The position numbers were made by a program, and so were the translations under genes. The notes under the pieces were generated by a model that saw only the letters and a program-made list of their open reading frames with translations, did no database searches and had not been told where the DNA came from. A stretch of 47,884 nucleotides of DNA. Source: a virus. Below, in pieces: positions 4,933 to 38,610 of this stretch. The stretch lies in IMG/VR virus record IMGVR_UViG_3300047195_000739, positions 1-47,884 of that record; one strand, 5' to 3'. Position 1 is the first letter of the stretch. Every line of letters starts with the position of its first letter.

Positions 4933-5006
4933 ACTTGTGCATAACTATATATATGTATACCTTTAGTAAACAATATATTAAAAAATAGAAAAAAGAAACA
5001 AATGAA

Positions 5007-5209: not shown

Positions 5210-5210
5210 T

Positions 5211-5242: not shown

Positions 5243-5272
5243 TAAATTAATTGTAAATAACAATTACCAATA

Positions 5273-15757: not shown

Positions 15758-15984
15758 ACCGTTTTCAATATATCAATCAGAACATTGCCAGGATAAAGGT
15801 TGATGTCAGAATAGGGATAACATCTTCATATATTTTAAGGCATTTTGAGGTTTATTCCCGATATGATTATTATCGGAGACTTGGTCATAATGTGCGATCA
15901 TCTGCAATGTATGCCGGTGATGACTTCAGAATAAATGAAACCTATGTATTTAAGATTAAAAAATTCATGGAAACTATAATATGA
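15754..15984 (+). CDS. Small basic protein between tape measure and glycan genes, 76 aa
   Basis: The protein is rich in Arg and Tyr (YSRYDYYRRLGHNVRSSAMY, ARIKVDVRIGITSSYI) with no recognised domain. It overlaps the tape-measure stop by ATGA and the first glycosyltransferase start by 4 bases, so it bridges the tail and glycan genes. It may be a tail component or a basic adaptor. Confidence 0.68.
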   Translation: MNRFQYINQNIARIKVDVRIGITSSYILRHFEVYSRYDYYRRLGHNVRSSAMYAGDDFRINETYVFKIKKFMETII

Positions 15985-17395: not shown

Positions 17396-17991
17396 AAGAA
17401 ATTTTTACGAAGATATACAATGATAATATCTGGGGATCAAAGGAGACTGCCAGCGGCACCGGATCAGAATTAAATGCCACAATACCATTAAGGTTACGAC
17501 TTCCAATTTTATTTAAGAAATACAATATCAGAACAATACTTGATGTTGGTTGTGGCGATTGTAATTGGATAAGCAAAACAATTTATGACTTTGATTATTA
17601 TTTAGGTATCGATATCGTTGATGAAATAATTGCTAAAAATAATAAACTTTATAAAAGTGATAAAGTAGAATTTAAACAAGGTAATGTCTGCGATATAAAT
17701 TTTGATAAATTTGATGTTGTTATAATCGCTGATGTGTTAGCTCATCTTTCATTTAGCGATATTTTAAGAGCATTAGAGAAAATAAAAAAGGTCAAATATG
17801 TTTTTATAACAAATTACCCTACTTTCGCAGCGAATTTTGATATTGAAACAGGTTCATGGAGGCCGGTAAATTTCCTGATCGAACCATTTAATTTTAAAAA
17901 GCCTATTGAGACAATTGATTATAATGATCTATATGATATAAAGTTAAGACAATGTAACGACAAAACATTATCATTATGGAATGGCATTTAA
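17392..17991 (+). CDS. Class I SAM-dependent methyltransferase, 199 aa
   Basis: TILDVGCGDCNWISK is motif I of a Rossmann-fold methyltransferase. YYLGIDIVDEII carries the acidic motif II residue, and FKQGNVCDI and FDVVIIADVLAHLS are motifs III and IV. A Trp-containing C-terminus follows (LSLWNGI). It could methylate a sugar hydroxyl or carboxylate, which suits the gene context. It has no DNA-methylase NPPY or PPC motif. It overlaps the next gene by 16 bases. Confidence 0.82.
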   Translation: MKEIFTKIYNDNIWGSKETASGTGSELNATIPLRLRLPILFKKYNIRTILDVGCGDCNWISKTIYDFDYYLGIDIVDEIIAKNNKLYKSDKVEFKQGNVCDINFDKFDVVIIADVLAHLSFSDILRALEKIKKVKYVFITNYPTFAANFDIETGSWRPVNFLIEPFNFKKPIETIDYNDLYDIKLRQCNDKTLSLWNGI

Positions 17992-18803
17992 GTGTACCGA
18001 AAATTGTTCATTTTGGTTGGGGAGAAACTTTATTGCCTTATCTTCGATTATTATCTATCAAGTCATTTATGAGATATAATCCTGACTGGCAGGTCATTCT
18101 TTGGATGCCTGTCATCCCAGGAGCGGTTGTTACATGGGAAAAGGGAGGCGCACTTGATTATAAACTTTCATGCAAAAATTACATTGATGAATTGATGGAC
18201 TTACCTATAAAAAGAACATATTTCGATATTTCTCAATATGGATTTAACAATTTAATTTCCGAAGTTCATAAATCTGATTTTTTAAGATTGGTATTACTTG
18301 GTACTTATGGTGGTGTCTGGGCTGATATGGATATTTTATTTTTCAAACCTATGACTGATTTATTAGTTAATATACTGGAAAACAAAGATAAAGAATCATT
18401 TGTCTGTCATTCGCATTATGGATATACAAATGCATTTATGATGTCAACTGAAGAAAATAAGTTATTTAATAATCTCGCAGCGGCAGCAAAAAATAATTTT
18501 AATCCCTCAGAACATCAATGTCTTGGGCTGGATTTGTTTAATAAATATTATCGGGAATTAAAAATGATGGGACCATTGGCGATTAATATTGGCATGGATG
18601 CTGTTATGATGCATGATATAATTCATATCGAAGATATTTATAATGGATCGAAGGCCAGATTTACTGAAGGTTCAATAGGCATGCACTGGTATGCAGGGCA
18701 TCAGTTGTCAGGTAAGTTTTTAAGAGAAACAGATGGAGGGTTGAGAAATCTTCCGGATAATATTCTGGGTAATTTAATACGAAATGAGAGTCCTGCTTAT
18801 TAA
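17976..18803 (+). CDS. Capsular-polysaccharide-type glycosyltransferase (GT32-like), 275 aa
   Basis: VPKIVHFGWG at the start and NPDWQVILWMP are hallmarks of the GT32/TcdA-like class ('IPKIIHQIW...PdW.v.lw'). The DxD motif sits in SDFLRLVLLGTYGGVWADMD (DMD), the metal and UDP-sugar site. The C-terminal MHWYAGHQLSGKF resembles 'H...aSW'. The enzyme probably transfers a hexose. It overlaps the methyltransferase by 16 bases and the radical SAM gene by 20, so the cassette is tightly coupled. Confidence 0.87.
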   Translation: MEWHLSVPKIVHFGWGETLLPYLRLLSIKSFMRYNPDWQVILWMPVIPGAVVTWEKGGALDYKLSCKNYIDELMDLPIKRTYFDISQYGFNNLISEVHKSDFLRLVLLGTYGGVWADMDILFFKPMTDLLVNILENKDKESFVCHSHYGYTNAFMMSTEENKLFNNLAAAAKNNFNPSEHQCLGLDLFNKYYRELKMMGPLAINIGMDAVMMHDIIHIEDIYNGSKARFTEGSIGMHWYAGHQLSGKFLRETDGGLRNLPDNILGNLIRNESPAY

Positions 18804-19905
18804 TCCCTGGTTACCGGAAGTATTCCCGTCACCTGCTATTGGCTATTTACAGGCAGCATTAAACCATTGGAAAGTTGATGTTGTGGCAAAAGACCTGAAT
18901 GAAGCAATGGCAGATAAGGAGGATTATGATTTAGTCGGGGTGTCGTTTCATAGTTTTTCCGTTAAATATGCCAGACAGATCAGGGATAAGTTCAAAGGAA
19001 AATTGATTTGCGGGGGTCATCACTCATCGGCTATGCCTGATCAGATGCTTTCAATAGGTTACGATCAGGTAGTTATTGGAGAAGGGGAAAACGCTATCAT
19101 TGATATTATTCAGGGTAACAGCGAAAAGATAATTAAGGATTGTGATCATAAATATTTCTTTGGCATCAACGAGATTCCATTTCCGGATTATACAGGATTA
19201 GGATCAACAGGGGAATATGGATTTGCAATAATATCAAGTAGGGGTTGTCCTTTTAATTGTAATTTTTGCGCCTCATCATTATTCTGGGATAGGAAATGGA
19301 AAGGAAGAAACTCATATAATATTCTCAAAGAGATAGAATTAAATATCGAACAATATGGAATTAAAATTTTTATGTTTGAAGATGATAACTTTACATTAGA
19401 TAAAAATAGAGTTATAGAGATTTGTGAATCAATAAAGGATTTACAACTTGTCTGGCAATGTGCTTCACGTGCGGATACTTTGAATGATGACAATATATGC
19501 AGGTCTTTAGTCGGTTCTGGTTGTCATAAAATTTGGTTAGGCATAGAATCTCTTTCTGAAGATAGTTTGCTCAGGATGGGGAAAAGAATTGAAATAAAGG
19601 ATATATTAAGCGGAATAGAGAATGCAGACAGATTCGGTTTGCAGACAATATCTCAATTCATTGTCGGATTTCCCGGAGATATGGAAGATGATATAATGAC
19701 AACAGTAAAAAATATTAAACTTAGTCATATAAATAAAAAGTCAATTCAGATTGCATGGATCATTCCTGGTACGGAGATTTATAATAAAGCAAAAGAATAT
19801 GGTTTTAATGATGATGTTTATCTGGAATCGGGTGCGCCATATTATACTTATGAGAATGATATTGATACTTTAAGAAGGTGGTCTAATTTAATATCGAACG
19901 CATGA
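18784..19905 (+). CDS. B12-binding-domain radical SAM protein, 373 aa
   Basis: Residues 1-125 look like the Rossmann cobalamin domain: MRVLLINPWLPEVFPSPAIG, DYDLVGVSFHSFS, LICGGHHSSAMPDQML, VVIGEGE. I do not see the DxHxxG cobalamin-ligand motif in standard form. The radical SAM core follows, with C155-x3-C159-x2-C162 (GCPFNCNFC), EDDNFT, WLGIESLSED and FIVGFPGDMED. Enzymes of this layout methylate unactivated carbons or remodel glycan and lipid precursors. It is unusual among phage morphogenesis genes. Its place between glycosyltransferases suggests modification of a sugar or of the glycan acceptor. Confidence 0.88.
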   Translation: MRVLLINPWLPEVFPSPAIGYLQAALNHWKVDVVAKDLNEAMADKEDYDLVGVSFHSFSVKYARQIRDKFKGKLICGGHHSSAMPDQMLSIGYDQVVIGEGENAIIDIIQGNSEKIIKDCDHKYFFGINEIPFPDYTGLGSTGEYGFAIISSRGCPFNCNFCASSLFWDRKWKGRNSYNILKEIELNIEQYGIKIFMFEDDNFTLDKNRVIEICESIKDLQLVWQCASRADTLNDDNICRSLVGSGCHKIWLGIESLSEDSLLRMGKRIEIKDILSGIENADRFGLQTISQFIVGFPGDMEDDIMTTVKNIKLSHINKKSIQIAWIIPGTEIYNKAKEYGFNDDVYLESGAPYYTYENDIDTLRRWSNLISNA

Positions 19906-20663
19906 TTGTCTTAATTACTCCAACAGGGGGACGTCCGGATCAGATAAGTATTTGTTCGCATTTGATGCATAAGCAGACATACCAGGGAAAGGTTGTCTGG
20001 ATAATTGTCGATGATTGTATTCCTCAGACGACTGATTTTATAAATGTTGATTTTCGGGAGAACTGGACTATTATAAAAATATACCCTATACCTTCCTGGT
20101 CGTCAGGACAAAATACTCAGGCCAGAAATATATTAGTCGGCATAAATACACTCCTTGCCAGTTATCCGAAAGAAGAGATTGAAGCGATCTTTATAATTGA
20201 AGATGACGACTATTATAAACCGGTATATCTGCAAAGGATGACAGAACAATTAAAAGGATTTGATATTGCAGGAGAGATAAATACAATTTATTATAATGTT
20301 GTGCACCGGGTTCATGTCACAAATGGTAATAATAAACATGCAAGTTTATTTCAGACAGTTTTTACAGTTGCAGCAATACCGCATCTTGAAAGTAGTTATT
20401 GGCATCAGTTTATAGATTGTCAACTTTGGGAAAAGGTACAGAATAAAAATCTATTCAGAGAAAATAATCTGGCAATTGGAATAAAAGGTATGCCGGGAAG
20501 GTACGGGATAGGTGCAGGACATTCAAAATGGTTTAGTAATCATATAGATAGGAACTTAAATTATTTAACATCAATAATTGGGGAAGATGCAAAACTCTAT
20601 GCAGGATATTACAGGGATAGTCGTCAGTCACACGTTCCGTTCTTTACTACAAAACGCTTATGA
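19902..20663 (+). CDS. Glycosyltransferase (GT-A type), 253 aa
   Basis: MIVLITPTGGRPDQISIC and VVWIIVDDCIPQTT give the nucleotide-binding strand and acidic turn. AIFIIEDDDYYKPVYLQRM is the DxD-type metal site (EDDD) followed by the expected 'YL..m' helix. The C-terminal SSYWHQFIDCQLWEK and GMPGRYGIGAGHS complete an enzyme-like domain. The substrate is unknown. It overlaps the radical SAM gene by 4 bases; its 3' end overlaps the next frame by up to 77 bases. Confidence 0.82.
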   Translation: MIVLITPTGGRPDQISICSHLMHKQTYQGKVVWIIVDDCIPQTTDFINVDFRENWTIIKIYPIPSWSSGQNTQARNILVGINTLLASYPKEEIEAIFIIEDDDYYKPVYLQRMTEQLKGFDIAGEINTIYYNVVHRVHVTNGNNKHASLFQTVFTVAAIPHLESSYWHQFIDCQLWEKVQNKNLFRENNLAIGIKGMPGRYGIGAGHSKWFSNHIDRNLNYLTSIIGEDAKLYAGYYRDSRQSHVPFFTTKRL

Positions 20664-21348
20664 ATCTGTCAGACAGTTTCATCCTGATATGCAAATAATC
20701 ATAATCGACGGTTCCCCGGCCGGTAGTGAGTGCTATAAATATATAAGCAGTCTTTCATCAAATATCACAACCGTCGGTGTATGTGGTTATAACATAGGTC
20801 ACGGGCGTGGCATGGATGCGGGCATACGCATGGTGAAAACAAAGTTTGCTTTGATCTTCGATTCAGATATTACAATGTTGAAGAGTCCTGTAGAACAGAT
20901 GTTAGCAATGATGGAGGTTGATACCTATGGCGTTGGTTATCTGGAAAAAACTGGTCATGACGGATTTGAATATGGTGTACATCCTCACATCGAGGGAATG
21001 ATGTATATGTTACATCCATATTTTCAACTTTTACAGGTATCAGAATATTTCAAGTTTCACCCGTATGTTCATCATGGCGCACCTTGCTACCTGGCTGCAC
21101 TCGATATTCACAAACGTGGACTGACAAGTAAGATCATAAAAGAATTCTCGGGATTAGGACACTCATCAGGTCAGGGGATGGGGTGGAAAGGCGAACCACG
21201 GGAATATATACAGCATGATCCTGGCGGGACGCGTTATGCAAGAAAAAGAATAGGTAAATCTGAAATAGAAGGACCGTGGGATTACGGTAATGGTACAAAT
21301 GAGACGAGTCGCAGTGTTAGGACTGGGGGATTCTTTAAAAGAGTTTAA
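20587..21348 (+). CDS. Glycosyltransferase family 2-like protein, 253 aa
   Basis: After the start (ATG 20587; another at 20599) comes ITGIVVSHTFRSLLQNAYES and IIIIDGSPAGSECY. ALIFDSDITMLKSPVEQML is the DxD site, and the preceding IGHGRGMDAGIRM binds the donor base as in GT2. The C-terminal region with FHPYVHHGAPCYLAA resembles the catalytic end. The first Met codons lie inside the preceding gene, an overlap of 65-77 bases, which is long for this genome. The TTG at 20578 is unlikely to be used. Confidence 0.8.
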   Translation: MQNSMQDITGIVVSHTFRSLLQNAYESVRQFHPDMQIIIIDGSPAGSECYKYISSLSSNITTVGVCGYNIGHGRGMDAGIRMVKTKFALIFDSDITMLKSPVEQMLAMMEVDTYGVGYLEKTGHDGFEYGVHPHIEGMMYMLHPYFQLLQVSEYFKFHPYVHHGAPCYLAALDIHKRGLTSKIIKEFSGLGHSSGQGMGWKGEPREYIQHDPGGTRYARKRIGKSEIEGPWDYGNGTNETSRSVRTGGFFKRV

Positions 21349-21814
21349 TCCGGCAGATTTTGAAATGTCTATCGGTGTTAATGATATATGGCGGTATCAT
21401 AAAAGTGAAGTCGTTGTATGTCTTGATCCTAGAAAAAACTTTACCAGGGATCGTATGCAGGTTATTGACAGTTGTACGCCGAAAGCCTTTTACAGCCAGA
21501 TGGAGACCTATAAAAAGAGGCCGGATTTTTTTCTGATTGAGATATTAAATAGTTATCCGGAAGTCACATGCGATCTGTCATTGTATAAATTTCAAAGGTC
21601 TTATTGCAGTCCATTTATCGCCGTGCAGATCGCTTTTCGTTGGTACGATACGAAAGATATTCATTTGTTTGGCATTGATATGATTAATCATCCGAAGTTA
21701 GATAAAAGACTTTGCGAAAAGATTAAGGTTCATTTTATCAATCTGAAGAAGGCACTCGCGGAATACGGATGTACTCTGACAATTCATGGGCAAGGAATCC
21801 TGAAAGATATTTGA
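21290..21814 (+). CDS. DUF115/sialyltransferase-like Rossmann protein, 174 aa
   Basis: RRVAVLGLGDSLKEFNPADF, SIGVNDIWR, VVCLDPRKN and HLFGIDMI follow the pattern of small Rossmann proteins related to DUF115 and CMP-sugar transferases ('lGnGPSL..f......igvN......y.v..D'). The family assignment is tentative. It overlaps the previous gene by 59 bases; a Met at 21299 gives a slightly shorter overlap. It ends the glycan cassette, and 62 bases later the head genes begin. Confidence 0.65.
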   Translation: MVQMRRVAVLGLGDSLKEFNPADFEMSIGVNDIWRYHKSEVVVCLDPRKNFTRDRMQVIDSCTPKAFYSQMETYKKRPDFFLIEILNSYPEVTCDLSLYKFQRSYCSPFIAVQIAFRWYDTKDIHLFGIDMINHPKLDKRLCEKIKVHFINLKKALAEYGCTLTIHGQGILKDI

Positions 21815-24753: not shown

Positions 24754-25272
24754 ATGACATTAATTGAGGAAGTAGTTTCTTTTTCACGGGAATACATTAA
24801 TTCTGTTAAAAGTCGTACTTCCGAGAGGAAAGAGAAAATCAGGGTTGTATATAAGGCATTAACCGGGGAAAATGTAAGAATATCCTGCGGAACATGTTAC
24901 GTAGAAGCCTTATTAATAATTAATAATAGAATAAAAATGGGACCATGTAACTATTTATTAAAGAAAGGAGCCAGATTGACGGCTTTTGGTAATTACTCAA
25001 AAAATTGCACAAATCAGAATATCACTAATGAACTTGCAGAATGGCATTTGAGAATCAATCCCGGGTGCGCAAGACTCTTTGAACGGATGCCGGATAACGC
25101 ACCTGTTAACCTTGCTAATGTTAAGTTAGTTGCACCTCCTGCAAATATAACAATCGTTCCCCCTGTAATTACGATCATACCGCCTGTTAAAAAAGAAGAA
25201 GTAAAACCGGAAGTTAAGGCGGAAGTAAAACTTCCCGGAGTAAAAAAAAGATCCAATAAACCTAAAAAATAA
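24754..25272 (+). CDS. Hypothetical head-region protein with Pro/Lys-rich tail, 172 aa
   Basis: Residues about 1-115 form a compact domain with several Cys (VRISCGTCYVEALLIIN, YLLKKGARLTAFG) and ITNELAEWHLRINPG near its end. This core recurs in Bacteroidota phages near the portal gene. The C-terminus is a disordered Val/Pro/Lys repeat (KKEEVKPEVKAEVKLPGVKK) that may bind DNA or other head parts. Its start is 3 bases after the terminator, and its stop abuts the portal start. Confidence 0.7.
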   Translation: MTLIEEVVSFSREYINSVKSRTSERKEKIRVVYKALTGENVRISCGTCYVEALLIINNRIKMGPCNYLLKKGARLTAFGNYSKNCTNQNITNELAEWHLRINPGCARLFERMPDNAPVNLANVKLVAPPANITIVPPVITIIPPVKKEEVKPEVKAEVKLPGVKKRSNKPKK

Positions 25273-26432
25273 TGAGAGTATCCGCTACTAAATCAGCACA
25301 AAGGGTCGAGCGGAACCAATATCTCACATCAAAAAAAATAAAGGGGTACGGTAAAGGCAATGATTATCCGCAAAAGATATTGGAGATCGTAAATGCATCC
25401 GGTACAGGCAAGGTCTGTATGGATATTTACGTTAAATTTATTGAAGGAGCAGGATTTACGGATCAGGTATTTTCTGATACTATTCTTAACACAAATGGAG
25501 AAAGGGCAAATGGTCTATTAAGAAAATTTGCTAAAGATCTAAAAGCATTCAATGGCTTTGCCTGTCTTGTTAAATATGATTATCGCGCATTACCTGTTGA
25601 ATATTATAATATCCCTTTTGAGCATTGCCGTATTGAATTAAATCAGGATAAGAGTTATTCCGGCAGGATCGCTGTTCATCCGGACTGGACAAACATAACC
25701 GGAAAAGTATTTAACATGAATGATGTTAAATTTATCAAACGGTTTGATCCTTTAACAGTAGTAAGTGAGATAGTCGAAGCCGGAAGTCCTGAAAATTATC
25801 TGGGTCAGATTTTTTATTTCACTGCCGACGGAGACTTTGAATATCCTATTTGTCCTTTCGATCCTATTGTGACCGATATGCTTACTGAGGAAAGTGTCTC
25901 GACTGTTAAACATAGAAATGCAAAATATAACTTTCTGCCTGCCGGTGTTCTGGTACGTAAAGGTATTAAACCACGAACACTTGGTGACGGTACTATTGAT
26001 AAAAGTGATAAATATAACCGTGAACAAACCGAGAGTAGAGAAAATATTACAAGAATGCAAGGTGATGAAAATGCCTCAAAGATTTGGGTTGTTGATATTG
26101 ATTCTGATGAAGAAATACCTATTTTTATTGATTTTACAGCAAAGAACTATGATAGACAATATGAGGTAACAGAGAAAACAGTTCAGGAAAATATTGGTCG
26201 TATGTTTATGGTTCCACCTATTTTACGTGGAGTTGATATTGGTGCTGGTTTCGGAGCTGATTTAATGACCAATGCATATAATTTTATGAACTCTGTTACA
26301 GGGAACGAAAGAAGAATGTTAGAGGTTGCCTTTCGGGATCTATTGACATTTTATATTATTAAATTTACAGATTTCTCAGTCTTGCCATTGACTTATATTG
26401 GAACTCCGGCAACTAATACCGTAACACCATGA
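25272..26432 (+). CDS. Portal protein, 386 aa
   Basis: It forms the 12-fold ring at the capsid vertex for DNA packaging. Visible features are GNDYPQKILEIVNAS at the start, IPFEHCRI and NMNDVKFIKRFDP in the wing, and a helical stem/crown end (QYEVTEKTVQENIGRMFMVP, AYNFMNSVTGNERRMLEVAF) with VPPILRGVD. This arrangement is typical of portal proteins in Bacteroidota siphoviruses. It stands after the capsid genes and not after terL, an unusual order. It overlaps the next gene by 4 bases. Confidence 0.85.
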   Translation: MRVSATKSAQRVERNQYLTSKKIKGYGKGNDYPQKILEIVNASGTGKVCMDIYVKFIEGAGFTDQVFSDTILNTNGERANGLLRKFAKDLKAFNGFACLVKYDYRALPVEYYNIPFEHCRIELNQDKSYSGRIAVHPDWTNITGKVFNMNDVKFIKRFDPLTVVSEIVEAGSPENYLGQIFYFTADGDFEYPICPFDPIVTDMLTEESVSTVKHRNAKYNFLPAGVLVRKGIKPRTLGDGTIDKSDKYNREQTESRENITRMQGDENASKIWVVDIDSDEEIPIFIDFTAKNYDRQYEVTEKTVQENIGRMFMVPPILRGVDIGAGFGADLMTNAYNFMNSVTGNERRMLEVAFRDLLTFYIIKFTDFSVLPLTYIGTPATNTVTP

Positions 26433-27248: not shown

Positions 27249-28586
27249 ATGAGAAAATTACTCATTTTATTATTATTGATTTTGGTAGGATGTCAGAAGA
27301 TGCCTATCTATGTCTCAAGACCAAGAACTATTTCTGTAATTAATGTCGGTACTGCCCCTAATTCCGGCAATGGAGATCCTCTTCGTACCACCATGATTAA
27401 GGTTAATTCCAATTTTGTTTACCATGATGTTGAGATAGGTTTACGGGCACCGATTAATAATCCTGTATTCACAGGTACAATAACAACGCCTTCACTGACT
27501 TTAGGTGCAGAAAAATTCACGGGTACTAAGATAGGTGTTGAGGGTGCTGATTCAACTAAGGGTGGTTCTAGGCATTATGTTCCCTGGTCAGCATTGGAAG
27601 GTTTTTCAGGTGGTGGATCAGGTGTTGCAGCAGAGACACTTGAATTTTTGGTAGGGGATGTTGGCGCACCTCAAAATGGGGATGCTACTTTAACTCATAC
27701 TCATTTTGTAGGTAAACATGTTGAAGTTTATCGGGAAAATGGATTACAAAAATTAATTCCTGCCGGTGTTACAACTGACGGATATACATTTAATGATCAG
27801 ACAGGGACAATAACATTTGTACCAGTACTTGCAACAGGAGAACAAATATTTGTAAAGGTTACAGATCCTATTTATTGGACCTCACTTGTTCTTGAAGGCG
27901 GTGGCGGTGGCGGGGCATCTTCTTTACTCACTAATCTTGTAGCTAATTGGGAACTGAATGAGACAATGGGAGCAACGGTAACAGATGAAATATCAGATTA
28001 TGTCGGTACAACTTCCGGTGCAACCGGCCAGGCAGGTTATTTTGGCTATGGAGTAAGATTTTTAGGCACTCAGGCATTAACGGTTCCTTACACTGCTGCT
28101 ATTCGTCCACAAGGTACTACTTATTCAGTTTCTTTGTGGTTCAGGATAACGGAGTTACCTTCAGTTCATGGACATTATTATGATTTGTTTATTCAAAAAC
28201 ACGATGCGGCACCTTACGAAAGTTTTAGGCTTTACATCGAGAATGCTGCAAATAAATTATATTTCTACGCTAATAATAGCATCGGAGGCACTTATTATAC
28301 TGCTGGTCCTGCTGTTAATATTAATACATGGTATAATGTTGTGATACTTTTCCGGGGTAATGGGCAAACGACTCTTTTATATGTTAATGGAGTTGATGCG
28401 AGTGGTGTATCTGATGCTTTTTCGGGTACAATCCTGGCTGCAAATTCTATTATAAGTATTGGTAATGACTATAATGGTGGTGCAACGGGCATGATTGGAA
28501 CTATTGATTGTCCCCGAATTTGGACAAAGACATTAACGTCAGCCGAAATAACAATATTACAAACTAAAACTTGGCCATTTAATTAA
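27249..28586 (+). CDS. LamG-domain tail-fibre-like lipoprotein, 445 aa
   Basis: I use the ATG at 27249, just after the previous stop; the in-frame TTG at 27171 is rejected because the ATG opens a lipoprotein signal (MRKLLILLLLILVGC, lipobox LVGC, then QK). After it comes VGTAPNSGNGDPLRTTMIKV, the 'NDGTGDPLR...K.N.NF' motif of phage tail fibres. A Gly-rich linker (EGGGGGGASS) leads to a LamG/concanavalin-like jelly roll (about 235-445) with LVANWELNETMGATVTDEIS, YSVSLWFRITEL and WYNVVILFRGNG. LamG domains bind sugars. A fibre motif behind a lipoprotein signal is odd, since virion proteins normally stay in the cytoplasm. Confidence 0.82.
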   Translation: MRKLLILLLLILVGCQKMPIYVSRPRTISVINVGTAPNSGNGDPLRTTMIKVNSNFVYHDVEIGLRAPINNPVFTGTITTPSLTLGAEKFTGTKIGVEGADSTKGGSRHYVPWSALEGFSGGGSGVAAETLEFLVGDVGAPQNGDATLTHTHFVGKHVEVYRENGLQKLIPAGVTTDGYTFNDQTGTITFVPVLATGEQIFVKVTDPIYWTSLVLEGGGGGGASSLLTNLVANWELNETMGATVTDEISDYVGTTSGATGQAGYFGYGVRFLGTQALTVPYTAAIRPQGTTYSVSLWFRITELPSVHGHYYDLFIQKHDAAPYESFRLYIENAANKLYFYANNSIGGTYYTAGPAVNINTWYNVVILFRGNGQTTLLYVNGVDASGVSDAFSGTILAANSIISIGNDYNGGATGMIGTIDCPRIWTKTLTSAEITILQTKTWPFN

Positions 28587-28591
28587 ACGAT

Positions 28592-30877
28592 ATGAAAAAG
28601 ATATTTATAATTTTTCTTTTATGGCTTTTTGCAATAACAATTTTCGGACAAAATGATAATGTACGAATGGTTGTTAATAAGAGCGATAGTACAATTTCAT
28701 TTTTTAATGGATTTATACCATTAAGGATTCGTGCTTATACTGGTGAACCAATAGTTGTTGGAGATCATTATGTTGCTACAATCGGAAATGATAACAATCC
28801 CGGGACATTAACTGAACCCTGGGGTACATGGCAGAAGGGATTTGATAATACAGCAGCAGGAGAAACAACATATATCAGGGGAGGTACTTATCCTTCTCCT
28901 AATCCTGCTAATGCAGCAGGTGTATATGTTAATAACGTGGATGGTTCAGCAGGAAATTTAAGATCAATAATAGCATATCCGGGGGAAATACCTATTCTAG
29001 ATTTAAGTAACTGTACTGTGTCGGGAGTTCCGCTTTTCGGTATTCATATGACAGATTGCGATTACTGGTATCTTAAAGGATTAAAAATAACAGGAGTACA
29101 ACAAAATGCAGGTCAACAATCATCAGGTGTTGAATTACAACGTTGTAATAACAATATTCTTGAACAAGTAGATAGTTATAATAATCATGCTTGTGGTATG
29201 GTATTATATGGTACTTATCCTGCCGGTGGAGTATGTACCGGTAATCTATATCTTAATTGTGATCTATATAATAATGATGATCCTGATGCTTATAATAACG
29301 GTAATGGTTTCACAATGGTATATATTTCAGCAGGAACAACTAACACAATACGAGGATGTAGAGCATGGAATAATCAGGGGGGTGAAGGATTTGGTATCTG
29401 GTCAAACGAGGGTTATGTTGCTATTGATTCTTGCTGGTCGTTTAATAATACGGGTAATCCGGGAGATGGTAATGGATTTGAACTCGGGTTGACTTATAAT
29501 CCTGTTGCTGGTACTAAAAGATATGTCACAAATAGTATTTCAGTAGGTAATGAAGAATATGGCTTCTCTGAATCCAATGCTGATCTTATCATGGAACTTT
29601 ATAATAATTTGGCTACTGGTAATGGTGCCGGATATTCTTTTGGTGGTAGTAATCCTGATAAACTTCATATAATTAAAAATAATGTTGATTATGGTAATAC
29701 GGGAGCTTCTGGATGGAATGCTTCTTATATACATAGTAATAATAGTTGGGACTCTGGTGTTACGGCATCTGCTGCCGATTTTGTAAGTGTGGACGTTACA
29801 CAACTAGATAATCCAAGACATTCAAACGGTAACCTGCCGGATATAACTTGTTTTTGGCCAGTAACAGGTTCCGATCTAATAGATGCCGGTACTGATGTGG
29901 GAATAGCTTATGTAGGTGCCAATCCTGATATTGGGGTGTTTGAATATGACGGTTTATTAGCACTTTTGATTGAAGGTGTAACAACTAATAATGCCGAAAC
30001 AGGATATTGGGAAGGCATCAGTATAGCAAGATCGGTTCCAACAGCATTGTCTTTTCTTAATAATTCCGTTACTTCTGTTAATACCACTGGTTATATGGTG
30101 CCAGTAGGAGACGATGAAGAGAGGGAATTTAATAATAATCTCAATGGAGCCATAATAACGGGTAATAAACTTACTTGGAATGGTACGGGATCATCAGGTA
30201 CTCATGGTCTAGCTATTGGTTATAATATAAATCAAGATGTAAAATATAATTATTTTGATAAAACACCAATAGGAATAGTATTCAAGTCTGGTACTATTGC
30301 GGGAGTTAATATGACAAATACTTCTGGTGGTGCGGCATATAATATTTTCAAAGATCCAAAAATTGTTGGTTTATTGGTAAAAGGAATAAATGGTACACAG
30401 ATTTATAATAATACATTTTATTCAAGTCTTTCGACAACTGAAACGTTACTGGTTATTCAGGAGAATCCATATTCTTCGCCTACTGTTGGGGCAACCGGGA
30501 CAAAAATTTATAATAATATTTTTTATTCAGTTTATGCAATAGAGGATATTTATGTAATGGCTAATTGTGTGACTGGTTTTGAAAGTGATTATAATATTTT
30601 TTATTGTGAAGGTGGTAATCCTAAATTTAATCTTGGTGGGGTTGTTCATACATTAGCTGAGTGGCAGGGTCATGGATATGATACTCATTCCGTTGTTGTT
30701 GATCCTGATTTTATAAATACAACTGCTTTTGTTCCGACATCCAGATTAGATTATGGTACTAATCTCGGTGCAACATGGCAGACAGGTCTTTCAACAACAG
30801 CTGTATGGACGGTAGGAGTGGCACCTGCGACACATAATCAGGATGCTACATGGCAGGTAGGTGCTCGAACTTATTAA
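28592..30877 (+). CDS. Exported right-handed beta-helix protein (putative polysaccharide-active spike), 761 aa
   Basis: Residues 1-19 are a Sec signal peptide ending FG, with Gln at +1, the Bacteroidota pattern. HYVATIGNDNNPGTLTEPWG and TYIRGGTYPSPN are the classic opening of a parallel beta-helix (pectate-lyase/tailspike-like). Many rungs with Asn ladders follow (NNILEQVDSYNNHACGMVLY, ITGNKLTWNGTG, IYNNTFYS, IYNNIFYSVY). The fold is common in depolymerases, but catalytic residues cannot be named from sequence alone. Six bases separate it from the LamG gene. It may cut host glycans, either on the virion or after export to the cell surface. Confidence 0.82.
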   Translation: MKKIFIIFLLWLFAITIFGQNDNVRMVVNKSDSTISFFNGFIPLRIRAYTGEPIVVGDHYVATIGNDNNPGTLTEPWGTWQKGFDNTAAGETTYIRGGTYPSPNPANAAGVYVNNVDGSAGNLRSIIAYPGEIPILDLSNCTVSGVPLFGIHMTDCDYWYLKGLKITGVQQNAGQQSSGVELQRCNNNILEQVDSYNNHACGMVLYGTYPAGGVCTGNLYLNCDLYNNDDPDAYNNGNGFTMVYISAGTTNTIRGCRAWNNQGGEGFGIWSNEGYVAIDSCWSFNNTGNPGDGNGFELGLTYNPVAGTKRYVTNSISVGNEEYGFSESNADLIMELYNNLATGNGAGYSFGGSNPDKLHIIKNNVDYGNTGASGWNASYIHSNNSWDSGVTASAADFVSVDVTQLDNPRHSNGNLPDITCFWPVTGSDLIDAGTDVGIAYVGANPDIGVFEYDGLLALLIEGVTTNNAETGYWEGISIARSVPTALSFLNNSVTSVNTTGYMVPVGDDEEREFNNNLNGAIITGNKLTWNGTGSSGTHGLAIGYNINQDVKYNYFDKTPIGIVFKSGTIAGVNMTNTSGGAAYNIFKDPKIVGLLVKGINGTQIYNNTFYSSLSTTETLLVIQENPYSSPTVGATGTKIYNNIFYSVYAIEDIYVMANCVTGFESDYNIFYCEGGNPKFNLGGVVHTLAEWQGHGYDTHSVVVDPDFINTTAFVPTSRLDYGTNLGATWQTGLSTTAVWTVGVAPATHNQDATWQVGARTY

Positions 30878-30887
30878 AAATAAAGAT

Positions 30888-31451
30888 ATGAAAAAGATGA
30901 AACTGATTATTGGACTTTTATTAATTACCCTGTTAACTTATTGTCAGGATGATAAGACATTTACTAAACCTGTTACATTTACAGTTCCTCCTACATTTTC
31001 AGGTGGTTTTTATTTAAATGGGATATTATATTTGAATATGCCTTCAGGTGGTGTTGCAGACTGGAATACACTACTCAATAAACCTTTGACATTTCCGGCA
31101 ACAACTCACAACCATGATCTGTTATATAGATCAATTAGTTATGTACCGACTTGGGCGGAAATAACTGGCAAACCGACAACTTTCACACCTGCTGCACATA
31201 ATCACGACTTGCTTTATAAACTTATTTCCTATGTCCCTACCTATGCAGAGATAACAGGGAAGCCGGGAGAAATTGAACTTCAGTTAGCCATAAGTCAACT
31301 GAAAGGTATTATCCCAACACGATATACAACGGCACAAATCAATGCATTTACACTACCAATTGAGGAAGGATTAGAGGTTTATGATTTAACACTTCATGTT
31401 AAAAAATATTGGAATGGTACAATCTGGAAAATTATAATTACTGCAAATTAA
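30888..31451 (+). CDS. Tail-fibre-repeat protein with lipoprotein-like signal, 187 aa
   Basis: The ATG at 30888 is preferred to the upstream TTG, which lies within the previous gene. The N-terminus has a Lys-rich start, a hydrophobic stretch (LIIGLLLITLL) and a lipobox-like LTYC followed by QDD. Two copies of a tail-fibre repeat follow: 'P.TFPATTHNHDLLYRSISY' and 'TFTPAAHNHDLLYKLISY', each with 'WAEITGKP' or 'YAEITGKP'. The C-terminus ends with HVKKYWNGTIWKIIITAN, a motif common at fibre ends. It could be a short lipoprotein fibre. The -1 Tyr in the lipobox is unusual. Confidence 0.75.
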   Translation: MKKMKLIIGLLLITLLTYCQDDKTFTKPVTFTVPPTFSGGFYLNGILYLNMPSGGVADWNTLLNKPLTFPATTHNHDLLYRSISYVPTWAEITGKPTTFTPAAHNHDLLYKLISYVPTYAEITGKPGEIELQLAISQLKGIIPTRYTTAQINAFTLPIEEGLEVYDLTLHVKKYWNGTIWKIIITAN

Positions 31452-31452
31452 T

Positions 31453-31551
31453 ATGTACGGATATACTTATACAACAACAGATGGTAAAACAATTATAGTT
31501 ATTTTTGGAGAAAGTACTGCAAGTGCAACTATTGAAATAACTGTACAATGA
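31453..31551 (+). CDS. Very small beta-rich protein, 32 aa
   Basis: The frame ATG 31453 to TGA 31549-31551 encodes a Thr/Ile/Val-rich peptide (MYGYTYTTTDGKTIIVIFGE and so on). It lies 1 base after the previous stop and overlaps the next gene by ATGA, so spacing matches real genes here. It may be a fibre tip, a trimerisation piece, or an accessory peptide. The function is unknown. Confidence 0.5.
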   Translation: MYGYTYTTTDGKTIIVIFGESTASATIEITVQ

Positions 31552-33527
31552 GAAAATTTCTCACAATATTATTCCTATTTTGCAGTCTGATTGTTTCAGG
31601 TCAGGTTTACCATTATATTGATCCAAGTGGTAATGATTCAGGAGGTGGACCCTGGCTCACATTGCATTATGCTTGCGAACAAATAACAACTCCGGGACAT
31701 GTTATTTTCGTCAATTCAGGTACATATGTAGAAACAGAACAATGTGTTTTGGCAGTTGGTGTAAGCATAACAGGTGAAGGCAATAGTAGTATTATCCATT
31801 CCCATTTGACAACCGATCCATTAATATTACTTTCTTCAGGTACAGAGGGTACAAATGGTAATCAAAGTATATCATGGATACGAATGGAAGGAGGGATGAC
31901 TGCGGAATGTCCTGTTTATACTAGAGCCAGAAGCAATGTTAAGATACATGATTGTGAATTTGAAGATTTTTTCAGTGAAGGTCCACAATTTGGCGGCACG
32001 ACCGGCGGAATAGGTCCGCCTGCTATCTATGCAACAGGTAATGAGTTCTACAATAATACAGTTATTAATTGCGCTGATTATTCAGGAGCCAATGATAGAA
32101 GCGGTAATGGCAATGGCAACATTGGTATTGGCGGTCAATCAGGTATGCTTGTACATGATAATTGGTTGGAACAAACTGATAGGGGCATTTATGCAACAGG
32201 GTATGTTATTAAATTTTTAAATTCTGGTTTTAATAGAGGTATGAAAATTTATAATAATACAATAAAAAAGCCTAGAGCAGAAGGGAATTATCCGGTAGGG
32301 AGTTGGGACTTCGCCATTGAACTTTGGAACAGTCGTGGAGGGATAGAGATTTACAATAATGATATCACAGGATCAATTGATCTGGGGGGACATACTTTTC
32401 TTAACAATGATGCCGGAGGTTATGGTTTTGCATTTAAAATTTACAATAACGTGATTGGTCAACCGACTATGCAACCCTACTATGAATGGGGATTTCACAT
32501 GGAAAGGAAACATATCGGAGGGATATATGTCTATAATAATATATTCAAAAATATAACAGAGATTTTTGATGCATGGATTGGCAACGGAGAAAGTGTAGAA
32601 GATTTTTATTTCTATAATAATATCTGTTACAATATTAATTATAATGGTAATTCTTTTGATGTAGATCCCGGTTATCCCGGGTCGGCAACCTATCACAATA
32701 TCAATTTTGTCAATAATGTTTATTATCAAGGAACTGGTGCGGGCATGAGTGCTATAAGACTCACTTTCAGCGGTGCTACAACAGAAGTCACGATACGAAA
32801 TAATGTTATGTATGGATTTACCGCTTATCCTATTTATGCCGAAAACTCTACGATAACTACCATGTCAGTAGAGAATAATCTCTACTACGATAATGGTACT
32901 AATGCGGCCTTTTATACAGGTTGTACAATAGTTGGAAAGACAGAACAAAACAATATTGTTGATAACCCTGATTTTACCAGTCCGGTAACTAACTTTCATT
33001 TACTTGCAGGTTCTCCGGCTATAAGTCCTGCTGGCATAGATATATCATGGCTCAATTATGACTTTGAAGGTAATCCTTATGAAAATCCGCCCAGTATCGG
33101 GGTGTACAAATATGGCAATACTTCTACTATGCCGACTGTCACGACAACTGCTATCTCTAATATTGACAAGACTATTGCAACAGGTGGTGGAAATTGTACA
33201 GCGACAGGGGGTGCGGCAATAACGGCAAGAGGTGTATGCTGGTCAACGGTAACTAACCCTACGATTGCAGGGTATAAGACGGCGGACGGAAGTGGATTAG
33301 GTGTATTTACAAGCAGTTTAATGGGGTTAATAGCAGGGACTACGTATTACGTGCGTGCGTATGCAACAAATGTTAATGGCACGGCATATGGCTCGCAGGT
33401 GTACTTTACAACGTTACCAGAAGTTGAACCACCAACGCCACCGGGTGTTACAGTTATTTTGAAAAATAGTGCAGGGACACAGTTTTTAAAGAATAGTGCA
33501 GGAGATAGAATTTTAATAAAGCAATAA
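31548..33527 (+). CDS. Exported beta-helix protein with fibronectin-like domain, 659 aa
   Basis: The signal peptide covers residues 1-18 and ends VSG with Gln at +1. YHYIDPSGNDSGGGPWLTLH and VIFVNSGTYVET open a parallel beta-helix whose rungs repeat 'hKIYNNxI' (MKIYNNTIKK, IEIYNNDITG, FKIYNNVIG, IYVYNNIFKN). About residues 525-625 hold a Bacteroidota fibronectin-type domain (TTTAISNIDKTIATGGGNCT, ITARGVCWST, TYYVRAYATNVNGTAYG). The C-terminus repeats LKNSAG twice. The fold suggests glycan binding or cleavage. The FN3-like domain type is known from cell-surface proteins of Bacteroidota hosts, so host origin of parts is likely. Confidence 0.83.
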   Translation: MRKFLTILFLFCSLIVSGQVYHYIDPSGNDSGGGPWLTLHYACEQITTPGHVIFVNSGTYVETEQCVLAVGVSITGEGNSSIIHSHLTTDPLILLSSGTEGTNGNQSISWIRMEGGMTAECPVYTRARSNVKIHDCEFEDFFSEGPQFGGTTGGIGPPAIYATGNEFYNNTVINCADYSGANDRSGNGNGNIGIGGQSGMLVHDNWLEQTDRGIYATGYVIKFLNSGFNRGMKIYNNTIKKPRAEGNYPVGSWDFAIELWNSRGGIEIYNNDITGSIDLGGHTFLNNDAGGYGFAFKIYNNVIGQPTMQPYYEWGFHMERKHIGGIYVYNNIFKNITEIFDAWIGNGESVEDFYFYNNICYNINYNGNSFDVDPGYPGSATYHNINFVNNVYYQGTGAGMSAIRLTFSGATTEVTIRNNVMYGFTAYPIYAENSTITTMSVENNLYYDNGTNAAFYTGCTIVGKTEQNNIVDNPDFTSPVTNFHLLAGSPAISPAGIDISWLNYDFEGNPYENPPSIGVYKYGNTSTMPTVTTTAISNIDKTIATGGGNCTATGGAAITARGVCWSTVTNPTIAGYKTADGSGLGVFTSSLMGLIAGTTYYVRAYATNVNGTAYGSQVYFTTLPEVEPPTPPGVTVILKNSAGTQFLKNSAGDRILIKQ

Positions 33528-34597: not shown

Positions 34598-35824
34598 ATG
34601 GCATCAATACCTACAAATATTCAGACTGCACTTATCTCAGGAGGTGTCAGGATAACATGGGATGAAACATTTACCAATGCACAGCAAATTCAACTTTGGG
34701 TTTCCATAAATAGTGCTGCCTATGTTTTACTTGCTACAATAAATTGTGGTATAAAGACTTATGATCATGTAATTGCAGGAGTTACTACTAAGTATAAATT
34801 AAGGTCTGTTCTAATAGACCATTATTCTAATTTCAATTCTATTCCCGTATCAGCACCTGCACCACTTATTTTTACATTGACTTCAAATGGAGATGGATCG
34901 GGAGTGTCGGAACTTAGATTTGAAGTAAGTGAGAACACAACAGCGACACTTTCCGGTACTGCAAAATTTTATACTGATGCAGCAGGGACATTAAGTGAGA
35001 GTTCGACATGGTTAATTACATCAGGGGCATTAAGACTTATTTATGTAAAAGTCCCTTCTGGAACAGCAACTTTAAAAGTTAAAAATGTAATTACAAAATG
35101 GGGTGCTGATTATGGAGAAGCAATATTAAGTGGATGGGAAAATCCGGCTCCAAGTGGTGCTTTCAATTATCCTAATATTGATATTGATGTTTCCACGATG
35201 ACCAAAACAACATCTTTAAATATTTTTGGATGTAATACTGTTCACGGAGATATCTCGGGATTAACTCAACTTACATATATTGAGATAGCTAATGGTTATA
35301 CAGCGGGATCATATGAAAATCCGAATATTCAACCAGGAGAGGGATGTACGATAACAGGTAATGTTGCATTATTAACTCATTTAACTGTTATTGATGTATG
35401 GGAAAAAATTCATCTGACAGGGGATATTTCAGGATTAACAAGTCTGACAGTAATATGGATGGCAACCAATAACTTTAGTGTATTTACAGGTAGTATCAAT
35501 GCCTTGATAAATATGACATATATGGTCGTAAATGCCGGTTCTGTTCTAACTGGTTCATTAGCAGGATTAATACACCTAACAAGAGTCATACTTAATAATC
35601 CTATTTCAATTACTATTCCCAATGTGACAAATATTATCAATTTGATTTATCTATATGCTACTTTAACACTTACTTCTACTAATATAAATCAGATACTTGC
35701 AAATTTGGTGGCAAATGGGAAAACAAATGGTCTGCTTACTCTGTATAATGGAACTCCAACAGGACAAGGAGTAACAGATGTAGGCACATTACAAACAAGG
35801 GGATGGACTGTAACAACGGGATAA
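34598..35824 (+). CDS. Leucine-rich-repeat protein with FN3-like module, 408 aa
   Basis: Residues about 1-90 are an FN3-like module (TALISGGVRITWDETF, IQLWVSINSAAY) like that of 33529-34596. Residues about 200-360 have irregular leucine-rich repeats: GDISGLTQLTYIEIANG, NVALLTHLTVIDVWEKIH, GDISGLTSLTVIWMATN, GSLAGLIHLTRVILNN. Such repeats bind proteins or glycans and are common in Bacteroidota phage fibres. There is no signal peptide, so unlike the four exported neighbours it could be a true virion part. It may use the same attachment point as 33529-34596. Confidence 0.8.
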   Translation: MASIPTNIQTALISGGVRITWDETFTNAQQIQLWVSINSAAYVLLATINCGIKTYDHVIAGVTTKYKLRSVLIDHYSNFNSIPVSAPAPLIFTLTSNGDGSGVSELRFEVSENTTATLSGTAKFYTDAAGTLSESSTWLITSGALRLIYVKVPSGTATLKVKNVITKWGADYGEAILSGWENPAPSGAFNYPNIDIDVSTMTKTTSLNIFGCNTVHGDISGLTQLTYIEIANGYTAGSYENPNIQPGEGCTITGNVALLTHLTVIDVWEKIHLTGDISGLTSLTVIWMATNNFSVFTGSINALINMTYMVVNAGSVLTGSLAGLIHLTRVILNNPISITIPNVTNIINLIYLYATLTLTSTNINQILANLVANGKTNGLLTLYNGTPTGQGVTDVGTLQTRGWTVTTG

Positions 35825-37172: not shown

Positions 37173-37922
37173 ATGTGTCTATTTAAAAAGAAACCACCGA
37201 TAGTCCCGATAACAGGCGACAAAGTTGCATTATTGTTTGGGATAAATGATTACATGGGAAACGGAAATGATCTCTCAGGTTGTTTAAATGATATTGATGA
37301 CGTTGAAAAAAAACTTAATAAAGAGTTTCCTGGATTCCAGATTAAGAAGTTCAAAGATTCGGAAGTCACAACTCAGAGATTCATTTCAGAGATTGAATCA
37401 GTTTTGCAATCAGTTGCAAAATTAATTTACATTCACTATTCAGGTCACGGTACAACCAATAATGTATCTCAGGCTCTTTATCTTTATAATGGCCCACTAT
37501 GGGAAAATGTAATTTATGATCTTGAAGATAAGACTCCAATGACGGTGCGAGTTATTGCAAAGTTTGATAGTTGTTTCTCAGGTGGGTTGCATGACCGGAT
37601 ATTCCTTTTAGGGCAAAGTTTCAAGAATAGATTTTATCCTATGCCTAGCATTACATTCACAAAACTGCCATTGAGAAAATTTGCAGAACGTGATTACCAT
37701 AAATGGGATATTTGGGCTGCGTGTGGACCTGGTCAGACAGCAGCAGATGCCAGTTTTAATAATAGAGCAAACGGGGCATTTACATTTATGGACAATAAGA
37801 GTTATGGGCCGACGACAAAGAATAGTGATGAAATCACATCATGTATCGATTTATTAAGAATAAATAATTTTGAACAGATTCCCGAATTTGACGGGCATCC
37901 TGATAATATAGTATTCATTTAA
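37173..37922 (+). CDS. Metacaspase-like cysteine protease (peptidase C14), 249 aa
   Basis: KVALLFGINDYMGNGNDLSG and LNDIDDVEKKLNKEF are the opening strand and helix of a caspase-type p20 domain. The catalytic pair is present: H92 in YIHYSGHG and C134 in KFDSCFSGG, in the usual 'YSGHG...DSCxSGG' order. WDIWAACGPGQTAADA and NGAFTF fit the last strands, so the domain is complete. Prokaryotic metacaspases cut after Arg or Lys. Here the gene lies between endolysin and holin candidates. It may process a virion or lysis protein, or act on host defence proteins. No signal peptide is seen. Confidence 0.88.
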   Translation: MCLFKKKPPIVPITGDKVALLFGINDYMGNGNDLSGCLNDIDDVEKKLNKEFPGFQIKKFKDSEVTTQRFISEIESVLQSVAKLIYIHYSGHGTTNNVSQALYLYNGPLWENVIYDLEDKTPMTVRVIAKFDSCFSGGLHDRIFLLGQSFKNRFYPMPSITFTKLPLRKFAERDYHKWDIWAACGPGQTAADASFNNRANGAFTFMDNKSYGPTTKNSDEITSCIDLLRINNFEQIPEFDGHPDNIVFI

Positions 37923-37933
37923 AACTTAAAATC

Positions 37934-38137
37934 ATGTTAACAAATTTGAGTTGGAAAACAACAGTATTAGGGATTCTACTTGCTATTGTGGTGGTAGTTG
38001 CGCCCCTGCTTCAGACTGGAACTGTCACATGGAAGGACATAACAATTGCCGTTCTTCTTGCTGTAGCTGGTTATCTTCAGAAGGATAAAGATGTTACCGG
38101 GGGAACCAGAAGTAATAACCAAAAGGTAATAAAATGA
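37934..38137 (+). CDS. Holin candidate, 67 aa
   Basis: Two hydrophobic stretches (TTVLGILLAIVVVVAPLLQT and TIAVLLAVAGYL) with a short polar turn (GTVTWKD) and a charged C-terminus (KDKDVTGGTRSNNQKVIK) are the class II holin layout. Its size and place after lysis enzymes fit. The holin would make the inner-membrane lesion that releases the M15 endolysin. It overlaps the next gene by 4 bases. Confidence 0.75.
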   Translation: MLTNLSWKTTVLGILLAIVVVVAPLLQTGTVTWKDITIAVLLAVAGYLQKDKDVTGGTRSNNQKVIK

Positions 38138-38610
38138 AAAGATTAATCATTGCACTTTTATTCGTTGCAATAACTTTTGCGAGTTATTCACAATCTGCTT
38201 GGAAGGGCTTTTTCAGGCCGATTCCGCGAGGCATTTATGAACCGATAGAAACTACCGACCGGGGGTACAGAGTTGATGAGAGTACGTCTTTCTGGCTATT
38301 CCGGCCAACTTTTCAACTGACTGCATTACAGTTTAACTTTGTAAACCCTATTACCGTATCTTCTTTGAGTTCGCTGGGAACAGGTTTAAGTTATCAGCAT
38401 TTTGTTAATGCTAATGGCGAACCTTATAATAATTATGGTTTTAATGCCTTAATTTTGTTTTCAGAAAATATCGGAGGAGTCGAACCTGCAAAATTATCAT
38501 TTGCTTTAACAGGTAATTTTTTGCAATATGTTTCAATAGGTGTAGGGTATTCCACATCAAATAAGACATTTTTTGCACTGACCGGTGTAGTAATTCATTT
38601 CAATCAGTAG
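38134..38610 (+). CDS. Exported outer-membrane beta-barrel-like protein, 158 aa
   Basis: Residues 1-19 form a Sec signal (RLIIALLFVAITFA, then SYS with Gln at +1). The mature part has amphipathic strands with many aromatic residues (WKGFFRPIP, FWLFRPTFQLTALQFNFV, VGTGLSYQHFV-like, FALTGNFLQYVSIGVGYS) and ends HFNQ. That fits a small outer-membrane barrel or a periplasmic partner. The 'AWKGFFRP...LTALQF..' pattern recurs beside holins in Bacteroidota phages. It may help disrupt the outer membrane or block superinfection. It is the last gene before a strong terminator. Confidence 0.75.
   Translation: MKRLIIALLFVAITFASYSQSAWKGFFRPIPRGIYEPIETTDRGYRVDESTSFWLFRPTFQLTALQFNFVNPITVSSLSSLGTGLSYQHFVNANGEPYNNYGFNALILFSENIGGVEPAKLSFALTGNFLQYVSIGVGYSTSNKTFFALTGVVIHFNQ

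Follow-up and report, generated by a model that had tools for sequence, protein, structure and literature searches.

Export signals on four consecutive fibre-type genes of a tailed phage and a possible route to the virion outside the cytoplasm

Virions of tailed phages are taught as products of the host cytoplasm. Why, then, would such a phage carry a run of fibre-type genes that begin with export signals? This question is raised by the IMG/VR virus record IMGVR_UViG_3300047195_000739 (47,884 bases, analysed over its whole length and called the window here), in which four consecutive open reading frames (ORFs), P1 to P4, lie on the + strand, separated by 5, 10 and 96 nt. A sequence-only reading had given each a Sec or lipoprotein signal, and the ORFs, a signal predictor and shuffled controls bore this out. 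The four genes, their parts and one further signal-bearing gene are as follows (an arrow marks a predicted cut).

27249..28586, + strand: P1, 445 amino acids (aa), with a lipoprotein-type signal, a fibre N-terminal motif and a LamG domain
27249..27290, + strand: P1 signal peptide, 14 aa, lipobox LVG↓C followed by Q-K
27339..27416, + strand: P1 fibre motif INVGTAPNSGNGDPLRTTMIKVNSNF (phrog_8859, E 0.0018), resembling the N-terminus of phi14:2 gp092
28071..28550, + strand: P1 LamG/ConA-like domain, residues 275-434 (PF13385, E 1.4e-21)
28592..30877, + strand: P2, 761 aa, with a signal peptidase I (SPI) signal and two domains, the first putatively of beta-helix type
28592..28648, + strand: P2 signal peptide, 19 aa, IFG↓Q
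30888..31451, + strand: P3, 187 aa, with a signal, HNHDLLY fibre repeats and a C-terminal domain
30888..30941, + strand: P3 signal peptide up to a conserved Cys (LTY↓C-Q); on the SPI reading it ends at 30944
31548..33527, + strand: P4, 659 aa, with an SPI signal, a repeat-rich body and a host-type C-terminal repeat
31548..31601, + strand: P4 signal peptide, 18 aa, VSG↓Q
33117..33422, + strand: P4 repeat domain, residues 524-625, with 10 occurrences (41-56% identity) in one Bacteroidales metagenome-assembled genome (MAG)
38134..38610, + strand: lysis-region protein, 158 aa, SPI signal SYS↓Q, with a homologue at 10968 of a related contig, L080 (40% over 163 aa)

All four proteins start with M-[K/R], followed by a hydrophobic stretch and a cleavage-type motif. 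Signals were called by an untrained rule-based predictor of our own, not SignalP, which looks for a positive n-region, an uncharged hydrophobic core and either the -3/-1 rule or a lipobox; it misplaces some cuts, for example that of L051:7890, and its score gives a bonus for Gln. Seven of the 71 window genes were flagged: P1 to P4, the gene at 38134, and two other lysis-region genes (36272 and 37934) that are membrane-protein-like and have no Gln at the cut. Gln stood at or beside the cut in five of the seven, which were exactly P1 to P4 and 38134, and made up 3.0% of window residues overall. When the N-termini of the 71 genes were shuffled in 400 rounds, the mean number of signal-like genes per genome was 0.54 (maximum 4), and the mean number with Gln was 0.035 (maximum 1). 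Removing the Gln bonus left the cuts of P1 to P4 unchanged and shifted that of 38134 elsewhere. The signals of P1 to P4 and 38134 are real, far beyond chance. For type IX secretion, no sorting-domain match was found by Pfam in P1 to P4 at E up to 1.

By the same predictor, P1 to P4 depart from the usual state of virion tail fibres, which is signal-less and cytoplasmic. As a control, a search with L051:5827 was made and the best 80 of 305 viral loci were taken, one of them the query itself; none of the 78 among these with intact 5′ ends had a signal under the same rule.

Gln had been placed directly after the cut in all five proteins. This stands for P2, P4 and 38134, the only plain type I sites with Gln at +1 (the Q-rule). 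In P1 the Gln is at +2 and not at +1, because signal peptidase II cuts before the lipobox Cys. The LTYC-Q of P3 can be read as an SPI site with Gln at +1, or as an atypical lipobox with Cys at +1 and an unusual Tyr at -1. The second reading is the better one since the P3 homologue L080:6001-6438 keeps the Cys (AVAC-GQ) and a larger relative, L081:5302-7044, has IIG↓C-Q; P3 is thus probably a lipoprotein. In Porphyromonas gingivalis, more than 60% of predicted SPI substrates are reported to carry Gln after the cut (PMC5837995).

The Q-rule requires a Bacteroidota host, and the window phage has such a host very probably, because of the relatives of its portal-type protein (25272..26432), which was our query for finding relatives. 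Of 146 matches in phage records, 144 were named after Bacteroides, Phocaeicola, Parabacteroides, Cellulophaga, Tenacibaculum or OM05-12. Relatives were also present in a Bacteroidales MAG contig and in a Flavobacterium genome.

The bodies behind the signals appear to be of two kinds. The P1 motif matched the N-terminus of phi14:2 gp092, a virion protein by tandem mass spectrometry (MS/MS), with a score of 60 against a shuffled maximum of 50 (0/500). Another candidate match, BS-TP3 gp9, scored 24 against a shuffled mean of 23 and was rejected. The LamG domain first read in P1 is matched by PF13385, and the fibre repeats of P3 match PHROG tail families (best E 7e-7). The C-terminal domain of P3 also ends a signal-less protein, L016:12056-13015.

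For P2 and P4, beta-helix bodies had been suggested. The two domains of P2 recur, in swapped order, in L051:7890-11135; the N-terminal one corresponds by homology to the segment of L051:7890 matching PF22842 (Pel9A-like beta-helix). Two relatives of P2, L016:14663 and L080:4184, also match this model; P2 and P4 themselves were below the Pfam cut-off for any beta-helix family. A beta-helix is therefore supported for P2 through homology, and more weakly for P4, whose body may be one as judged by eye and by partial similarity to PF22842 proteins. The closest homologue of P4 (L080:1265-3202, 40%) was without a Pfam match. The C-terminal repeat of P4, earlier taken for FN3, was not called FN3 by Pfam and is instead a domain of Bacteroidota chromosomal genes; two of the four MAG places inspected were in genes starting with an export signal. 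Fibre modules mark P1 (by motif) and P3 (by repeats) in the tail module, and P2 and P4 are placed there by position only. Because of the PF22842 relatives, the MAG repeat, the LamG domain with its motif, and the tail repeats, P2 and P4 appear to derive in part from a host, and P1 and P3 resemble phage fibre modules with an added signal.

Further searches gave little. No match was found with P1 in phage records, with a profile from four P4-type proteins in PDB sequences at E 0.01, or by megablast of 24 kb, and P1 and P4 found only a duplicate contig, L002, among viral contigs. Predicted structures had a mean pLDDT, the confidence score, of 36.7 for P4 (from a 2-row alignment) and 33.0 for P2 (from a 5-row alignment), and were kept out of fold searches. 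Glycosylation as a reason for export was examined with a Bacteroides-type O-glycosylation motif, D[ST][AILVMT], in 26 proteins, 20 of them with signals. It was dropped because just one of the 20 (L016:13521, 6 against 2.2 expected) exceeded shuffles at 0.02 and 16 were below expectation.

Signal-bearing proteins of this type are annotated as virion parts in Cellulophaga phages. In phi10:1, gp091 to gp094 carry the virion note 'annotation based on experimental MS/MS proteomics analysis', and all four have an SPI signal with Gln at +1, as has gp095, a pectate lyase annotated by similarity. Consecutive genes with SPI signals and MS/MS virion notes are also found in phi19:1 (gp101-104, with Lys at +1 in gp104) and phi18:3 (gp085-087). 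Among 55 MS/MS-annotated proteins of five phages, 11 had signals (phi10:1, 4/12; phi19:1, 4/7; phi18:3, 3/4; phi13:1, 0/13; phi14:2, 0/19), and 10 of the 11 had Gln at +1. This count covers stretches rather than whole genomes of phi10:1, phi19:1, phi18:3 and phi13:1, leaves aside phi19:1 gp094, which is cut at a stretch end, and includes as MS/MS several proteins, none of them among the 11, whose note ends at 'part of structural virion'. Similar runs without MS/MS notes of their own are present in phi46:3 (gp079-083, of which four are structural by similarity) and Ingeline_1 (genes 31-34). For the presence of the 11 proteins in virions we rely entirely on the annotation of the deposited records KC821618, KC821607 and KC821620; the signals, the module structure and the conservation of one signal family as protein were computed directly. 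The virion list of phi10:1 is not simply every exported protein, because three exported-type genes outside the cluster (758, 19215 and 23531) are annotated as hypothetical and not as structural.

The Cellulophaga proteins are built of interchangeable parts. From about residue 117, phi10:1 gp093 is 44% identical to signal-less phi14:2 gp097, a tail protein with an MS/MS note, and its body is 50% identical to signal-less phi17:2 gp054, structural by similarity; the same fibre body therefore works with or without a signal. Similarity of gp093 to phi18:3 and Nekkels is limited to residues 1-118 or 1-132, and that of gp094 to phi18:3 gp087 to about residues 1-70. In both families the signal and the next 50-110 residues are constant and the bodies vary. 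We read this constant N-terminal module with changing bodies as a fibre pattern, which would fit docking by the N-terminal module and binding by the distal part. The signal codons of the gp093 family in four phages showed 27 synonymous and 0 nonsynonymous pairwise differences, although the pairs are not independent; because all differences were synonymous, this signal is under purifying selection and is kept as protein. PHROG models of some such proteins, named tail fiber or virion structural protein, start at residue 1 and therefore include the signal. Structural gp088 of phi10:1 is separated from the signal genes by no more than two small genes (172 and 116 aa; gp090 has an MS/MS note), so that there are no large signal-less fibre candidates there. 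A single signal-bearing fibre-type gene (UXQ88755) was found in the tail module of Tenacibaculum phage Larrie, between homologues of phi13:1 gp013 and gp014; next to that place phi13:1 has a signal-less MS/MS protein, gp015, which is not homologous to it.

Related contigs carry comparable sets. L080 (IMGVR_UViG_3300031566_000617) has four consecutive signal genes, including homologues of P4 (40%) and P3 (49%). L016 has a pair of signal-bearing fibre-type genes, and L051 has three, the first of which matches actinophage minor tail proteins in its C-terminal part. A search of viral contigs with L016:13521 found only itself. In L081, six signal-like genes stand in a row at 1440-7988 (842, 112, 199, 580, 164 and 140 aa), and one of them has many P3-type fibre repeats behind a lipobox.

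We propose that P1 to P4 are examples of a broader group of Bacteroidota phage fibres, the SPI members of which reach the virion. The sequence-only reading had left two options, exported decoys and fibres added outside the cytoplasm. The 11 Cellulophaga proteins favour the second; decoys are its main rival, above all for P1 and P3. On the favoured reading, for which we see the chances as evenly balanced, P1 to P4 would be fibres that leave the cytoplasm through Sec and are added to virions outside it, at lysis or later. They would be translated alongside the neighbouring structural genes and exported via the Sec pathway of the Bacteroidota host as fibre/lyase-type proteins. P2 and P4 would be cut by SPI, exposing Gln as in the Bacteroidetes Q-rule, with lipoprotein processing for P1 and probably for P3. 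Late in infection the SPI members would accumulate in the periplasm or on the surface, and completed particles set free by lysis would take them up as receptor-binding or polysaccharide-cutting appendages. Late in vitro attachment of fibres is established for other phages (T4). We infer export, cleavage, timing, attachment outside the cytoplasm and the transfer of these to the window phage. The transfer of virion membership from other phages would be stronger for P2 and P4 than for the lipoprotein-like P1 and P3, for which a membrane-bound role is at least as natural as a virion role.

A broader proposal, to which we give somewhat less than an even chance, is that a set of Bacteroidota tailed phages spanning several lineages assembles in two compartments. 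Heads and tails would be made in the cytoplasm, host-binding fibres would be exported by Sec, trimmed, capped with pyroglutamate and attached during or after lysis, and members with a lipid anchor would remain cell-bound as matching decoys. To our knowledge, such an assembly route has not been described for tailed phages.

Several observations weigh against export of P1 to P4 as virion fibres. Their virion presence would be taken from other phages only, and blastp at E 1e-3 found no match between P1 to P4 and the compared Cellulophaga proteins. The MS/MS notes report presence without N-termini and could also cover soluble or vesicle proteins that were co-purified. The 11 virion examples are all of SPI type, whereas P1 and probably P3 are lipoprotein-like. 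The gp094-family signal showed 27 nonsynonymous against 23 synonymous differences, with its core and Gln kept. All 32 MS/MS structural proteins of phi13:1 and phi14:2 were without signals, as were five tail/fibre proteins of crAss001 and tail proteins of FCL-2 and 6H. In phi19:1, two large signal-less MS/MS proteins upstream, gp97 and gp98, could be its fibres, and the window itself retains two signal-less genes, P5 and P6, after P4. Against generality, no signal-fibre cluster was seen in the examined stretches of phi13:1, phi14:2, phi38:1, phi17:2 and BS-TP3, or in FCL-2, 6H, crAss001 (first 50 kb) and BS162P3 (34.8 kb).

The survey of related loci weighs on the same side. It comprised 47 loci, many of them short: 46 portal relatives, excluding the duplicate L002, and L057. 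At least 3 kb beyond the portal was reached in 19 of them, including L032-L034, which look like one phage, and signal-bearing fibre-type genes of at least 150 aa were found among the 19 in L016 only. In L004, L012, L022, L026, L033, L034 and L039, signals were confined to later genes, which by position lie at or near lysis-type genes; in the remaining loci no signals were seen, many being too short to tell. At the place of P1 to P4, relatives usually have signal-less M-x-I-R-I-G-I-G proteins. From this survey and the block in L080, the signal-fibre set is an optional, module-shuffling block and not a core feature.

Other explanations have to be weighed against the even chance given to virion fibres. 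P1 to P4 may act outside the virion as exported decoys or surface modifiers, which would coat or trim the glycans of the infected cell or its debris, spare progeny and block competing phages. Here the lipoprotein-like P1 and probably P3 would be anchored in the membrane, the polysaccharide-lyase-type beta-helix matched by P2 relatives and the host-protein domain repeated in P4 would fit, and signal-less P5 and P6 would be kept as possible virion fibres. Q-rule genes of P. gingivalis phages have been interpreted as possible envelope modifiers (PMC10367356). We consider such a role possible but doubtful, given that all 11 signal-bearing fibre-type proteins of the three Cellulophaga phages are MS/MS-annotated as virion proteins, that P1 and P3 carry virion fibre modules, and that P1 to P4 are located between connector-type and signal-less tail-type genes.

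Virion annotation in Cellulophaga phages by itself requires no export. The N-terminal hydrophobic segments, conserved in the gp093 family, might stay uncut and unexported, serving as hydrophobic anchors or trimerisation plugs in particles assembled within the cytoplasm. However, it is difficult to account for Gln at +1 in 10 of the 11 virion examples, and for the host-typical c-regions, without the action of signal peptidase and glutaminyl cyclase, and P1 and P3-type members have Cys at the cut; we regard this reading as unlikely. Passive capture is more improbable still. In this case host secreted genes, which P2 relatives and the P4 repeat resemble, would have been taken with their signals and would still be without a phage function, or the contig would be chimeric. 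Against this, the same genes are present at 100% in a second IMG/VR contig (L002, which may come from a related sample), homologous genes are found in L080, L016 and L051, the signals of P1 and P3 sit on phage fibre modules, and the gp093-family signal is under purifying selection.

P1 to P4 are flanked by portal/connector genes on one side and by P5 and P6 on the other, and gaps among them and the neighbouring structural genes are 1-96 nt. The other features of the window are listed below.

Start 13430: tape-measure-type protein (phrog_3336, E 2.8e-7)
Start 21877: head maturation protease
Start 22992: phrog_38780 protein, 25% identical to its counterpart in Bacteroides phage BS-TP3
25272..26432, + strand: portal-type protein, matching annotated portals of Cellulophaga phage phiST and Tenacibaculum phage Larrie
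Start 26429: DUF6712 protein (Pfam)
Start 26978: small protein upstream of P1
33529..34596, + strand: P5, 355 aa, signal-less, with a start resembling the M-x-I-R-I-G-I-G proteins at the same place in relatives
34598..35824, + strand: P6, 408 aa, signal-less, related to P5
Start 36634: endolysin-type protein (phrog_894)

Near the endolysin-type gene, a caspase-domain (Peptidase C14) gene is present at 37173-37922 (PF00656, E 4.9e-12); its homologue L080:7544-8341 (30%, E 6e-29) lies beside the signal-fibre set of that contig. The 38134-38610 protein resembles, by eye, a small protein of the outer membrane. A gene run at 15981-21814, lying between the tail and head modules, has a glycosyltransferase domain in one gene (16613); the others have a glycosyltransferase, methyltransferase or radical-SAM look, from weak hits or by eye, and similar-looking genes are present in L016 at 3239-5989. 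This run might modify fibres or host glycans. A tail-region protein (9674-10747) has a Fib_succ_major domain (PF09603, E 8e-23), a fold that is a common target of diversity-generating retroelements (DGRs).

Two genes from other genomes may be noted here. FCL-2 has a 147-aa gene (L071:45363-45806) with an SPI signal, Gln at +1 and then the motif 'GIATTTPTETLDVNGT', far from its tail genes. In Flavobacterium erciyesense, a prophage-type fibre gene (L058:12728-13918), just upstream of a holin-like gene, reads ADA↓Q by eye; it was unflagged by the predictor rule and is not counted as a further case. A search with this Flavobacterium prophage fibre found no phage record.

The view that such a set had no established precedent has to be corrected. 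Five Q-rule genes of unknown function have been described in P. gingivalis phages (PMC10367356; repeated in PMC10653852), and the Cellulophaga virion annotation is deposited. A full-text literature search, which did not cover the source paper of the Cellulophaga records, turned up no publication in which signal peptides are related to the virion fibres of phages of Bacteroidota. In a flavophage paper, pectate lyases are named core genes of Assiduviridae, and the main text does not contain 'signal peptide' (PMC8776804). The signal-fibre set is real and unusual, with stronger backing than the sequence-only reading could draw on, and with an existing experimental lead that we did not find discussed in print.

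If P1 to P4 and their like are exported virion fibres, receptor-binding proteins of such Bacteroidota phages may be missed, since one survey has counted the lack of signals in favour of a phage origin for DGR proteins (PMC6199706). Any engineering of such phages would have to provide for export, and the phages would depend on the Sec or glutaminyl cyclase function of their host. Export of fibres is directly testable in published phage isolates. The virion annotation of such proteins in some marine Bacteroidota phages suggests that some tailed viruses complete their particles with parts exported beforehand.

Among known systems, the superinfection-exclusion lipoproteins Llp and Ltp are small and block the receptor or DNA entry. 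P1 and P3 are lipobox-like but have fibre domains. The tail fibres and tailspikes gp22-26 of crAss001 are, unlike P1 to P4, without export signals. So are phi14:2 gp097 and phi17:2 gp054, which share their body with signal-bearing phi10:1 gp093, and phi14:2 gp092 shares the N-terminal motif of P1. With the Pel9A-like right-handed beta-helix polysaccharide lyases (PF22842), the likeness runs through the P2 relatives in L051, L016 and L080:4184; P2, P4 and the closest P4 homologue are themselves below the cut-off. The P. gingivalis phages (proposed Nixviridae) resemble the window in having phage genes with Bacteroidota Q-rule signals; by description these genes differ in being of unknown function, and we found no mention of them as fibres (PMC10367356). 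The Cellulophaga runs (phi10:1 gp091-095, phi19:1 gp101-104, phi18:3 gp085-087, phi46:3 gp079-083 and Ingeline_1 31-34) are, like P1 to P4, consecutive fibre/lyase-type signal genes; they have three to five genes, all of SPI type and with Gln at +1 except phi19:1 gp104, whereas the window has the lipoprotein-like P1 and P3. L080 differs from the window in gene order, partly in the bodies, and in that two of its four signals are without Gln at +1, but it shares the run of four signal genes, the P3 and P4 homologues, and homologues of the genes at 37173 (30%) and 38134 (40%).

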